DNA of 64,000 nt, taken from assembly GCA_022763425.1 (NCBI GenBank), contig JALEGD010000001.1, positions 372,001 through 436,000 on the forward strand, written 5' to 3'. The position numbers and the translations under genes are program-made. Shown in pieces: positions 40,886 through 44,226 of this stretch (positions are counted from its first letter, which is position 1; each line of letters opens with the position of its first letter). The notes beneath the pieces are model-generated. The model did not search any database. It was not told the DNA's origin and saw nothing but the letters and a program-made list of their open reading frames with translations. This stretch comes from Pelagibacteraceae bacterium (GTDB lineage: Bacteria > Pseudomonadota > Alphaproteobacteria > Pelagibacterales > Pelagibacteraceae).

Positions 40886-40951
40886 ATGAAAAATATAGTT
40901 TTAAATCATACACACCATCACACACATGCTAAGCATGGGCTTGGCAATTAA
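40886..40951 (+). CDS. Histidine-rich leader peptide (21 aa) upstream of tRNA-His-hisS
   Basis: ATG to TAA encodes 21 residues whose C-terminal part reads NHTHHHTHAKHGLGN: six His among ten consecutive codons, using both CAT and CAC. It is 42 bases upstream of tRNA-His, hisS, hisZ and hisG. E. coli HisL likewise has a His run before the his operon, so a sensing role is the natural reading. Two mutually exclusive small hairpins overlap its 3' half: CATGC/GCATG (40925-40937) and GCTAAGC/GCTTGGC (40928-40945). Neither is followed by a T run, and there is no strong ribosome-binding site. The peptide is visible; its regulation is inferred. Confidence 0.65.
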   Translation: MKNIVLNHTHHHTHAKHGLGN

Positions 40952-40993
40952 TTATATATTTAACAAAAAAAAAATAATATAAACTTAACAAAT

Positions 40994-41070
40994 GCAGCTG
41001 TAGCTCAGTTAGTTAGAGCGCCTGTCTGTGGAACAGGAGGTCGTTGGTGCAACTCCAACCAGCTGTACCA
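40994..41070 (+). tRNA. tRNA-His(GTG), no encoded G-1
   Basis: The structure reads GCAGCTG-TA-GCTC...GAGC-G-CCTGT-CTGTGGA-ACAGG, anticodon GTG, then T arm GTTGG-TGCAACT-CCAAC, acceptor CAGCTGT, discriminator A73 and encoded CCA. Base G1 faces U72, the base before it is T (so G-1 is not encoded), and the discriminator is A rather than C. Loss of G-1 with A73 is known from a large alphaproteobacterial group. The T loop has G at position 55 where U is nearly universal. hisS starts five bases after the CCA. Confidence 0.95.
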
Positions 41071-41075
41071 AAAAA

Positions 41076-42500
41076 ATGAATAAAAAAATAAGTAAGCCAC
41101 CCATAGATTTACCTGGCGGCTTTATCGATAGAAAAGAAAAAGAACTGGTTATAAGAGATTTCTTAATTAAACAGATTAAGGAAGTTATGACCAAGTATGG
41201 TTTTGAGTTTCTTGAAACACCAAGTTTTGAATATACCGAAAGCTTAGGGAAATTTTTACCAGATAAAGACAGACCATCAGAAGGAGTATTTTCATTTGAG
41301 GATGGAAAAAAATGGTTATCTTTAAGATATGATTTGACAGCACCACTTGCGAGATTTACTGCAAAGAATTTTGATAATCTCTCACGTCCATTCAAGAGAT
41401 ATCAATTGGGTACAGTATGGAGAAATGAAAAACCAGGGCCAGGACGTTTTAGGGAATTTTTACAATTTGATGCTGATTATGTTGGAACAAATAATTTATT
41501 AGCTGATAGTGAATTATGCGTCTTGATCTCAGAAATATTAGAAAAATGTGGTCTAGCGAATAATGAATTTAGTATTAAAATTTCAAATCGAAAGTTATCA
41601 AAAGGTTTACTAGAAGAGCTTGATATTAAAGATCAAAATCAACAGTCTATATCACTAAGAGCAATTGATAAGTTAGATAGAGTCGGCGTTGATGGTGTTA
41701 AATTATTATTAGGAAAAGGTAGAAAAGATAAATCAGGTGATTTTACTGAAGGTGCAAAATTAGAAGTAAAACAAATAGATAAAATTGTAGAATTTTTAAA
41801 TTCAAAAGGGATAGATCAATTAGAGCAAATTGGATGTAAAAATAAATTATTCCAAGAAGGTATTAGCGAATTAAAACAAATAGTTAAAAACTTTGAGTTT
41901 TTTGAATTTAACAATTTTAAAATTGACCCAGCTGTGGTCCGAGGTCTTGAATACTATACTGGACCAATTTTTGAAGCAGAACTTACTTTCAAAGTTAAAA
42001 ATGAAAAAGGAATAGATATTGAATTTGGCTCTATTGGTGGTGGCGGAAGATATGACGACCTTGTAAAAAGATTTAAAAATCAAGATTGTCCAGCTACTGG
42101 AATTTCTATTGGTCTTGACCGTTTATTATATGCATTAAATCAAAAGAATATCTTTAATTTCAGTCAAAAAAATCCTGTTTTAATTTGTGTGCTAGATAAA
42201 AAATATATGGATTATTATTTTAAAATCTTAAATTTATTAAGATCTAATAATATTAATTCTGAAATTTATTCTGGGTCTTCGAATTTCAAAGCTCAATTAA
42301 AATATGCAGATAAGCGAAATTGCAAATATGTGGTTATTTGTGGTGATGATGAAGTTTCAAAAGAGTTAGTAACGTTAAAAAATCTGGTAATAGGTAGCAA
42401 AGTATCTGAAGATATTAAATCTAGGGAAGATTGGACACAATCCAAAGATGCACAAAAGACTTTTGCGCTGTCTGATTTATTAAAAGAGATAAAAAAATAG
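41076..42500 (+). CDS. hisS: Histidyl-tRNA synthetase
   Basis: I start at ATG 41076 (MNKKISKPPIDLPGGF, 474 residues); a longer frame would begin inside tRNA-His. The class-II core shows LSLRYDLTAPLARF, motif 2 FKRYQLGTVWRNEKPGPGRFREFLQFD (residues about 106-132), and the His-specific VVRGLEYYTG. The C-terminal anticodon-binding domain follows after about 375. Motif 2 differs from the usual bacterial form (RHERPQKGRYRQFHQ in E. coli), in keeping with the altered tRNA-His next to it. It is probably co-transcribed with the tRNA and with hisZ, two bases downstream. Confidence 0.95.
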   Translation: MNKKISKPPIDLPGGFIDRKEKELVIRDFLIKQIKEVMTKYGFEFLETPSFEYTESLGKFLPDKDRPSEGVFSFEDGKKWLSLRYDLTAPLARFTAKNFDNLSRPFKRYQLGTVWRNEKPGPGRFREFLQFDADYVGTNNLLADSELCVLISEILEKCGLANNEFSIKISNRKLSKGLLEELDIKDQNQQSISLRAIDKLDRVGVDGVKLLLGKGRKDKSGDFTEGAKLEVKQIDKIVEFLNSKGIDQLEQIGCKNKLFQEGISELKQIVKNFEFFEFNNFKIDPAVVRGLEYYTGPIFEAELTFKVKNEKGIDIEFGSIGGGGRYDDLVKRFKNQDCPATGISIGLDRLLYALNQKNIFNFSQKNPVLICVLDKKYMDYYFKILNLLRSNNINSEIYSGSSNFKAQLKYADKRNCKYVVICGDDEVSKELVTLKNLVIGSKVSEDIKSREDWTQSKDAQKTFALSDLLKEIKK

Positions 42501-42502
42501 GC

Positions 42503-43567
42503 ATGTCAAAAGCTTTAATAAATAAAAAAAATAAAGAAAACATTTCAAAAAAAATATTAAATATTTTTAAAAAGAAAGGTTTTAATTTTATAGATCTAGA
42601 TATTTTAATTGATACCGATCTTCTTACTCAACGTTCCGGAGAAGCTTTTAAAAAATACGCATTAAATTTCAAAGATAAGTCTGGAAAGGAAATTAGCTTG
42701 AGACCTGATTTAACAATTGCAACAGCCATTCAATATATTGAAAGTAAAAAAAAAGGGACTGAAAAACTATCTTATTTTGGATCAGCATTTAGATTGAACA
42801 AAAAGAGAGATTTAAATGTCTTTGATCAGATTGGTTGTGAAATTATTAACTCCAAATCGTCACCTGAATATTTAATTTTATCTACTATTTTATCTGTATT
42901 TCAAAAATTAAAAAAAACTGAAATCGTATTAAATGATCTTGGTTTATTTCAAGATTTAATTAATTCATTAAATTTACCTCAAAGATGGAAATTAAGATTA
43001 ATCAGACATTACTCTAGAAAAGAATATTTTGATGAACTTTTAAAACGATTAGACACTAATTATGATCTTGATAATGAAAAGATCAAAATTGATTATGATA
43101 GACTTGAAGAGCTTAAAAAAATGAACGCTGATAAAGTCATTGGTAGCAGAACTGTTAAAGAGATTATTGAGAGATTTGAAAAGAAAATAAAAGATCCACG
43201 AGATAATTTTAAAGGTAGTCGTAGTGTCAAAATTATTAAGGATTTTTTAAAATTAAAAGTTCCTTTAGGAAAATCAGGAAATGTAATTAAAAAGTTTGTA
43301 GAAAAAAATAATTTGAAAATAAAAAATATTAATCAAACTTTATCTAAATTTAATAATTTAAATAAAAGATTAGGATCAAAACAGGATATCATCTTTGATG
43401 CCAAATTTGGAAGAGAAACTCAATATTATACTGGTTTAGCTTTTTCAATTTGTAAACAGAATAAAGAGCTGGCCAGAGGGGGTGAATATAATAATTTAAT
43501 TAAAACTTTAGGAGGTAAGCAGACCCCGGCTTTTGGCGCTGCAATTAATTTAAATCAACTGATATGA
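42503..43567 (+). CDS. hisZ: ATP phosphoribosyltransferase regulatory subunit
   Basis: The 354 residues resemble a class-II synthetase catalytic core (ISLRPDLTIATAIQYIE, FGSAFRLNKKRDLNVFDQIGCEII, FGRETQYYTGLAFSIC) but lack the anticodon-binding domain and synthetase signature residues, as expected for HisZ. HisZ pairs with a short HisG to form the first, feedback-inhibited enzyme of histidine synthesis. It lies between hisS and a short hisG, with a four-base overlap onto hisG. Confidence 0.93.
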   Translation: MSKALINKKNKENISKKILNIFKKKGFNFIDLDILIDTDLLTQRSGEAFKKYALNFKDKSGKEISLRPDLTIATAIQYIESKKKGTEKLSYFGSAFRLNKKRDLNVFDQIGCEIINSKSSPEYLILSTILSVFQKLKKTEIVLNDLGLFQDLINSLNLPQRWKLRLIRHYSRKEYFDELLKRLDTNYDLDNEKIKIDYDRLEELKKMNADKVIGSRTVKEIIERFEKKIKDPRDNFKGSRSVKIIKDFLKLKVPLGKSGNVIKKFVEKNNLKIKNINQTLSKFNNLNKRLGSKQDIIFDAKFGRETQYYTGLAFSICKQNKELARGGEYNNLIKTLGGKQTPAFGAAINLNQLI

Positions 43568-44226
43568 GCAAAATAAGATTAGGATTACCCAGCAAAGGAA
43601 GATTAAAAGATGAAAGCATAAGAATATTCGCGTCAAAAAATTTAAATATTAAAAAAACAAGTTCTAGAAATTACTTCTTTAATTTTGAAGAAAGTGACAA
43701 TTTTGACGGTATTTTTTTACACGCTAGAGAAATCATTGAAAGATTAAATGATGGAACTTTAGATGCCGGGGTATCAGGTTTAGATCTTTTGATGGAACTC
43801 CCAGATGAATATCAAAATAATATTAAGATTTTGAAAAAATTAGATTTTGGTTTTGCCGATTTAGTCGTAGCTGTACCTAATGATTGGTTAGATGTTCAAA
43901 ATATTGCAGATTTAGAAGAGGTTAGTTTTGAGTTTAAAGAAAAATATAATCGAAGAATGAGAGTAGCTACAAAGTATCCAAAATTAACGGAGGATTTTCT
44001 TTTATCTAGAGGAGTAACTGAATTTAAAATAGTTGGAAGTTTGGGTGCGACAGAATCCTATCCTTTTACAGGTTCTGCAGAGTTAATAACTGATATCACT
44101 TCAACAGGCTCAACGTTAAAAGAAAATAACCTGAGAATAATTTCTGATGGAAAAATACTTAAAAGTTCAGCCTGTTTATTTGTTTCAAAAAAGTTTAAAG
44201 GAAAAGAATTAGATATTTTTAAGTAA
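43564..44226 (+). CDS. hisG: ATP phosphoribosyltransferase catalytic subunit, short form
   Basis: HisG joins ATP and PRPP, the first step of histidine synthesis. The 220 residues are the short form without the C-terminal regulatory domain, which explains the adjacent hisZ. Motifs include RLGLPSKGRLKDESI, DAGVSGLDLL, RVATKYPKLTEDF and the PRPP-binding region DITSTGSTLKENNLRII. A strong terminator follows the stop at once. Confidence 0.95.
   Translation: MSKIRLGLPSKGRLKDESIRIFASKNLNIKKTSSRNYFFNFEESDNFDGIFLHAREIIERLNDGTLDAGVSGLDLLMELPDEYQNNIKILKKLDFGFADLVVAVPNDWLDVQNIADLEEVSFEFKEKYNRRMRVATKYPKLTEDFLLSRGVTEFKIVGSLGATESYPFTGSAELITDITSTGSTLKENNLRIISDGKILKSSACLFVSKKFKGKELDIFK

Follow-up and report, generated by a model that had tools for sequence, protein, structure and literature searches.

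The question raised by this locus of a Pelagibacteraceae genome is whether a short open reading frame (ORF) crowded with histidine codons serves as a leader peptide for the histidine genes that follow it. SAR11 bacteria, which belong to the most abundant cells in the ocean, are described as poor in regulators. A precedent is hisL of E. coli and Salmonella (Rfam His_leader), in which a short ORF with clustered His codons, seven of them in a run, is followed by histidine genes and adjoined by RNA hairpins. The original prediction for the window (the whole stretch of 64,000 nucleotides that was analyzed) was that a His leader precedes a histidine transcription unit and is overlapped by two mutually exclusive hairpins. 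Comparison with relatives upheld the leader, both in its reading frame and in one hairpin (HP2), and did not uphold the exclusive pair. From these sequence comparisons, it is considered likely that the element is a His leader-peptide attenuator that senses charged tRNA-His and controls tRNA-His, hisS, hisZ, and hisG. The features are listed in Table 1.

Table 1. Leader region and downstream genes, with coordinates given as positions in the window
Feature	Position	Strand	Remarks
Promoter-like element P1	40850-40877	+	TTGAAA 40850-40855, 16 nt, TACTAA 40872-40877; TTG in 66/66 distinct relatives
Leader ORF	40886-40951	+	ATG...TAA, 21 codons, MKNIVLNHTHHHTHAKHGLGN
Possible outer helix P0, 5′ strand ATATAGTT	40893-40900	+	Complementarity; weak in window
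Conserved His codon of H-x-x-H, three codons before last	40916-40918	+	51/56 His, CAT and CAC both
Last His codon upstream of hairpin	40925-40927	+	56/56 His, 29 CAT, 27 CAC
Hairpin HP2, GCTAAGC(ATGG)GCTTGGC	40928-40945	+	Conserved; begins at last upstream His codon
Possible outer helix P0, 3′ strand AATTATAT	40950-40957	+	Complementarity; weak in window
A+T-rich spacer, leader stop to tRNA-His	40952-40993	+	Holds TATAAA 40978-40983
tRNA-His (GTG), first gene 3′ of leader	40994-41070	+	
hisS, histidine--tRNA ligase	41076-42500	+	TIGR00442, 369 bits, cut-off 287
hisZ, ATP phosphoribosyltransferase regulatory subunit	42503-43567	+	Top NCBIfam hits are to hisZ models, under the curated cut-off
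hisG, ATP phosphoribosyltransferase	43564-44226	+	TIGR00070, 178 bits, cut-off 76

The leader ORF and its conservation

The predicted ORF of 21 codons with six His in ten codons was present exactly as described, the His codons being those at 40907, 40913, 40916, 40919, 40925, and 40934, all within codons 8 to 17. The claim that such a density is improbable by chance also held. Among 514 ATG-initiated ORFs of 14 to 50 codons in the window, the leader ORF alone exceeded 3 His per 10 codons, and the maximum among 23,347 Markov-simulated ORFs was 4 His per 10 codons. When 543 intergenic short ORFs were ranked against a background of about 400 kb of genome stretches plus the window (∼464 kb of the genome), the leader ORF was the strongest cluster of any single amino acid (binomial probability of 3.4e-9, before multiple testing). 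The same intergenic short ORFs gave no convincing case of a leader for another amino acid in the sampled genome.

The hisS loci of the same family were drawn from whole genomes. A tRNA-His was found upstream at 71 loci; L025 was left out, as it had too little DNA, and the remaining 70 were tabulated, with the ORF at each locus chosen by a rule favoring His. All 70 have a His-containing ORF that stops 42 to 69 nt upstream of tRNA-His, and these encode 63 distinct peptides (14.5% His overall, 2 to 6 His each). At L084, L086, and L091, where the tRNA-His was missed by ARAGORN, a His-containing ORF was found on reading the DNA. A check for relatives that keep the tRNA-His-hisS order and have lost the His-rich frame found it retained, as an ORF of 15 to 33 codons with 2 to 6 His, in all 73 family loci for which the upstream DNA was readable; since the loci are related, these counts are not independent trials. 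The tRNA-His of L084, L086, and L091 was seen to have an unusual D-arm region, and the HisRS of these genomes is only about 45 to 50% identical to that of the window.

The manner in which the frame is conserved was deduced from a hairpin-anchored alignment of 56 distinct leaders. The last codon before the hairpin (alignment columns 31-33) encodes His in all 56, a figure that is partly built in because the pattern used for collection demanded CAY at this place; the C and A of this codon were also invariant in an alignment of 53 made without the requirement. Three codons earlier (columns 22-24), His was found in 51 of 56 (30 CAC and 21 CAT). For the majority of the other leader codons, the encoded amino acid varies. 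The two key His codons are thus nearly fixed at their first and second positions and free to be CAT or CAC at the third, which points to selection on the codon. Between the window and the close relative L003, all six His codons are kept with synonymous CAC/CAT changes, and neighboring codons are altered (N to K, T to S, and T to F). The leader of HIMB114, among the named near relatives of this SAR11-like genome, has two His codons only.

Hairpin HP2 and other pairings

In every locus, the start of HP2 is set at the last upstream His codon, which it overlaps by about two bases in some, and the position of the leader stop codon relative to the 3′ end of the hairpin ranges from 7 nt upstream to 10 nt downstream. 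In the window, HP2 is extendable to 40927-40946, at about −10 kcal/mol. Across the 56 distinct sequences, 392 of 392 pair cells were standard pairs, compared to 4 to 50% when the partners were slid by 1 to 3 columns; this perfect pairing is again partly built in, as the stem too was largely fixed by the pattern used for collection. Within this main group, changes in the stem are one-sided only and go to G-U. Other lineages carry different stems at the same place (GCTGGC/GCTAGC, ATAGCC/GGCTAT, and ACGGCT/AGCCGT). This rebuilding of the stem between lineages is taken as stronger evidence for HP2 than the pairing within the group. The stem at each locus was the best perfect one in the vicinity of the stop codon; when shuffled sequence was searched identically, 7% of trials attained the score of the weakest stem observed and 0.7% attained the mean score. 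MAFFT and RNAalifold applied to all lineages together gave no consensus pairs because stems of unequal length misalign, and the model built from that alignment (R1) was sequence-only and was left unused. No second exact copy of the HP2 motif was found elsewhere in the genome, where partial matches were about equal to control.

Of the two hairpins proposed as exclusive, the one at 40928-40945 was conserved. The alternative at 40925-40937 was rejected as not conserved, being absent in most lineages, and the exclusivity was not supported: no mutually exclusive antiterminator and terminator pairings were found, and HP1, HP2, and P0 are mutually compatible. HP1 occurs in some genera only, where its loop or stem contains His codons and compensatory changes are seen. 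P0 would connect the start of the leader with the part that follows HP2. It is improbable in the window (pair probability of 0.06) and stronger in relatives, with compensatory change, including a double compensatory change between L083 and L087. A P0 complementarity score of at least 18 was reached by 49% of 67 distinct loci versus 7% of cross-lineage swaps and 5% of shuffles, and the enclosed structure was recovered by folding in L007, L046, and L083. In one large genus-level group, and also in HIMB114, L005, L062, L066, L068, L084, L086, and L088, P0 is either weak or lacking.

Transcription signals and the downstream unit

The start codon of the leader follows element P1 after 8 nt, which would give an almost leaderless mRNA. 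At −48 to −22 of the leader ATG, a TTG(A/C)A-type element was present in 66 of 66 distinct loci, compared to 38% of shuffles, and was found in loci with and without tRNA-Phe upstream. P1 was not flagged by a consensus scan of the window alone. The TATAAA of the spacer is 10 nt upstream of tRNA-His, and a similar sequence was seen by eye 10 to 13 nt upstream in most relatives; it is possibly a second promoter belonging to tRNA-His itself.

The prediction that no terminator stands between the leader and the tRNA was borne out in part. The hairpins of most relatives have no convincing U-tract, but in the window 40927-40946 together with ATTAATTATA is weakly terminator-like by consensus scan (1 found, 0.2 expected). 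A loose T criterion after HP2 was satisfied by 27.5% of distinct HP2s versus 13% in shuffles, and the mean T-tail after HP2 was 1.6, compared to 1.1 at positions taken at random and 5.4 behind a real terminator in a relative. A convincing U-tract follows HP2 in a few lineages only, and over all relatives the T content is modestly above chance.

The downstream unit is devoted entirely to histidine (tRNA-His, hisS, hisZ, and hisG); NCBIfam confirmed the identities of the three protein genes, although the matches for hisZ are below the curated cut-off. hisZ follows hisS in all of L001-L030, as does hisG where the locus is long enough. Upstream of the leader in the window are hisD, infA, maf, and tRNA-Phe. 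The tRNA-His of the window has G1-U72, A73, and T at −1; such a tRNA-His is of the derived alphaproteobacterial type discussed for SAR11 (PMC3937112). With regard to a T-box, only tRNAs matched in the window at the Rfam gathering threshold, and no T-box matched in relatives at E<=1. The leader element matched no Rfam family; in particular, no hit to His_leader at E<=1 was obtained among seven loci of the family and five of the sister family.

Sister family and other alphaproteobacteria

In a sister family of the same order (12 loci), a frame of 11 codons with three or four His (e.g., MIVYTHHHIHI) is found ∼90 to 110 nt upstream of hisS with no tRNA gene between. Just past the stop codon lies a covarying stem of 9 to 12 bp, in which both sides show base changes, and the leader is preceded by a TTGAC promoter-like element. 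At L069-L081, this TTGAC occurs with a conserved GGCATTTCA-like stretch, and the leader is followed by a conserved ACCCC(C/T) motif. No His leader was found upstream of hisS in 28 loci from other alphaproteobacterial families, in some of which the hisS start is only roughly placed.

Discussion

The data for an attenuator include a conserved short ORF rich in the cognate codons and, in HP2, an RNA structure with covariation support that adjoins the regulatory codons. The His codons of the sister family, which directly precede a covarying hairpin in front of hisS, count in the same direction. In the proposed mechanism, transcription would start a few nucleotides upstream of the leader ATG, and a ribosome would translate the leader behind RNA polymerase. 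With ample His-tRNA, the ribosome would quickly reach the stop codon and leave, upon which HP2, together with HP1 and P0 where present, would fold and lower transcription into tRNA-His. The folded leader would act by weak intrinsic termination, pausing, Rho, or RNA processing. With charged tRNA-His scarce, the ribosome would wait at the His codons; waiting at the last of these, just before or within HP2, it is proposed to block HP2 and so to allow more tRNA-His, HisRS, and HisZ/HisG to be made. The direction of the response, from less charged tRNA-His to more expression, is presumed from biological logic.

This proposal was compared to a model of ribosome occupancy with a 30-nt footprint. With the A-site at the His codons from 8 to 11, HP2 was formed; it was weakened at codon 12 and abolished at codons 14 or 17, and six relatives gave the same trend. 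A stall at the fixed last His codon would accordingly be expected to hold HP2 open, since modeled occupancy there removes it. Counted against the attenuator, modeled stalls at the earlier His codons, which would be the first to be hit in severe starvation, leave HP2 unblocked. The weak U-tracts, the lack of exclusive pairing, the two His codons of HIMB114, and the possible tRNA-His promoter were counted against it as well. A narrower version, in which a minimal SAR11 attenuator consists of a nearly leaderless His ORF with a single hairpin abutting it and, having neither U-tract nor competing antiterminator, lets charged tRNA-His control transcription of its own gene along with that of the synthetase, is put forward tentatively, as a possibility open to considerable doubt.

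Several other readings of the same features were weighed. The stalled ribosome may cover a C-rich, G-poor CAY stretch on which Rho would otherwise load, with HP2 as a pause or protective element. This is consistent with the missing U-tract after HP2 in most relatives, with a His-codon stretch (CATACACACCATCACACACAT) that is C-rich and G-free, with the use of CAC for 48% of leader His codons versus 2 of 15 in six neighboring genes, and with the presence of an encoded Rho. It is nevertheless judged unlikely, as the leader is short for a Rho site and Rho alone leaves the conservation of HP2 unexplained. A nested fold of P0, HP1, and HP2 could instead hide the leader start codon, with only nascent RNA translated, the signal sensed once, and the whole fold acting as the off signal. 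The excess of P0 complementarity over swaps and shuffles, the L083/L087 double change, and the enclosed structure recovered in three relatives argue for such a fold, which we rate as rather improbable given that several lineages lack P0 or have it only in weak form, that it is improbable in the window, and that the sequences are AT-rich and related.

The remaining readings dispense with sensing by a ribosome. HP2 could be a DNA operator, GCTAAGC...GCTTAGC being a palindrome in many loci, or a terminator of the tRNA-Phe located upstream in the window, with the His codons incidental. However, the stem variants go to G-U, which preserves RNA pairing and breaks the DNA palindrome, many loci keep the element with no tRNA-Phe immediately upstream, and the His codons are conserved at the codon level; this origin is thus very improbable. 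Least probable of all, to the point of being scarcely credible, is that the ORF encodes a functional His-rich, metal-binding micropeptide. The six His of the window peptide would suit such a role, but only two His positions are kept, the other residues drift, and the His count falls to two. Furthermore, the C-terminal residues are dictated by the hairpin, no NCBIfam model matches the peptide, and its position is always before tRNA-His-hisS.

The attenuator that we favor differs from hisL in that it targets tRNA-His and hisS first, and in that it has two nearly fixed His codons, with no exclusive hairpins or strong U-tract found. A His-codon leader has also been predicted upstream of hisS* and hisZ in bacilli (PMC2965389). 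The likeness lies in a predicted His-codon leader before hisS-family genes; the bacillar cases differ in being from Firmicutes, in having been found via intrinsic terminators, and, as far as the available part of that paper goes, in having no tRNA gene between leader and target. Closer in taxonomy is the uORFC-8-2 motif upstream of cysS in Rhodobacterales, a candidate uORF with two stems and the codons in the first (PMC8632094). It is likewise an alphaproteobacterial uORF with cognate codons before an aminoacyl-tRNA synthetase, but it concerns cysteine and cysS, carries a U run at the 3′ end in every case, and has no tRNA gene in the described unit. No published description of the element was found in the open-access literature, where absence is not proof; the main text of a survey of structured RNAs in SAR11 (PMC2704228) mentions neither hisS nor histidine.

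The two architectures found in the sister families can be compared to see what changes such sensors undergo. A conserved sensor for an amino acid, ∼130 bases in size, would illustrate the tuning of aminoacylation in a streamlined cell, and, if the proposal is true, a tRNA gene, beyond the enzymes alone, would be under leader-peptide control.
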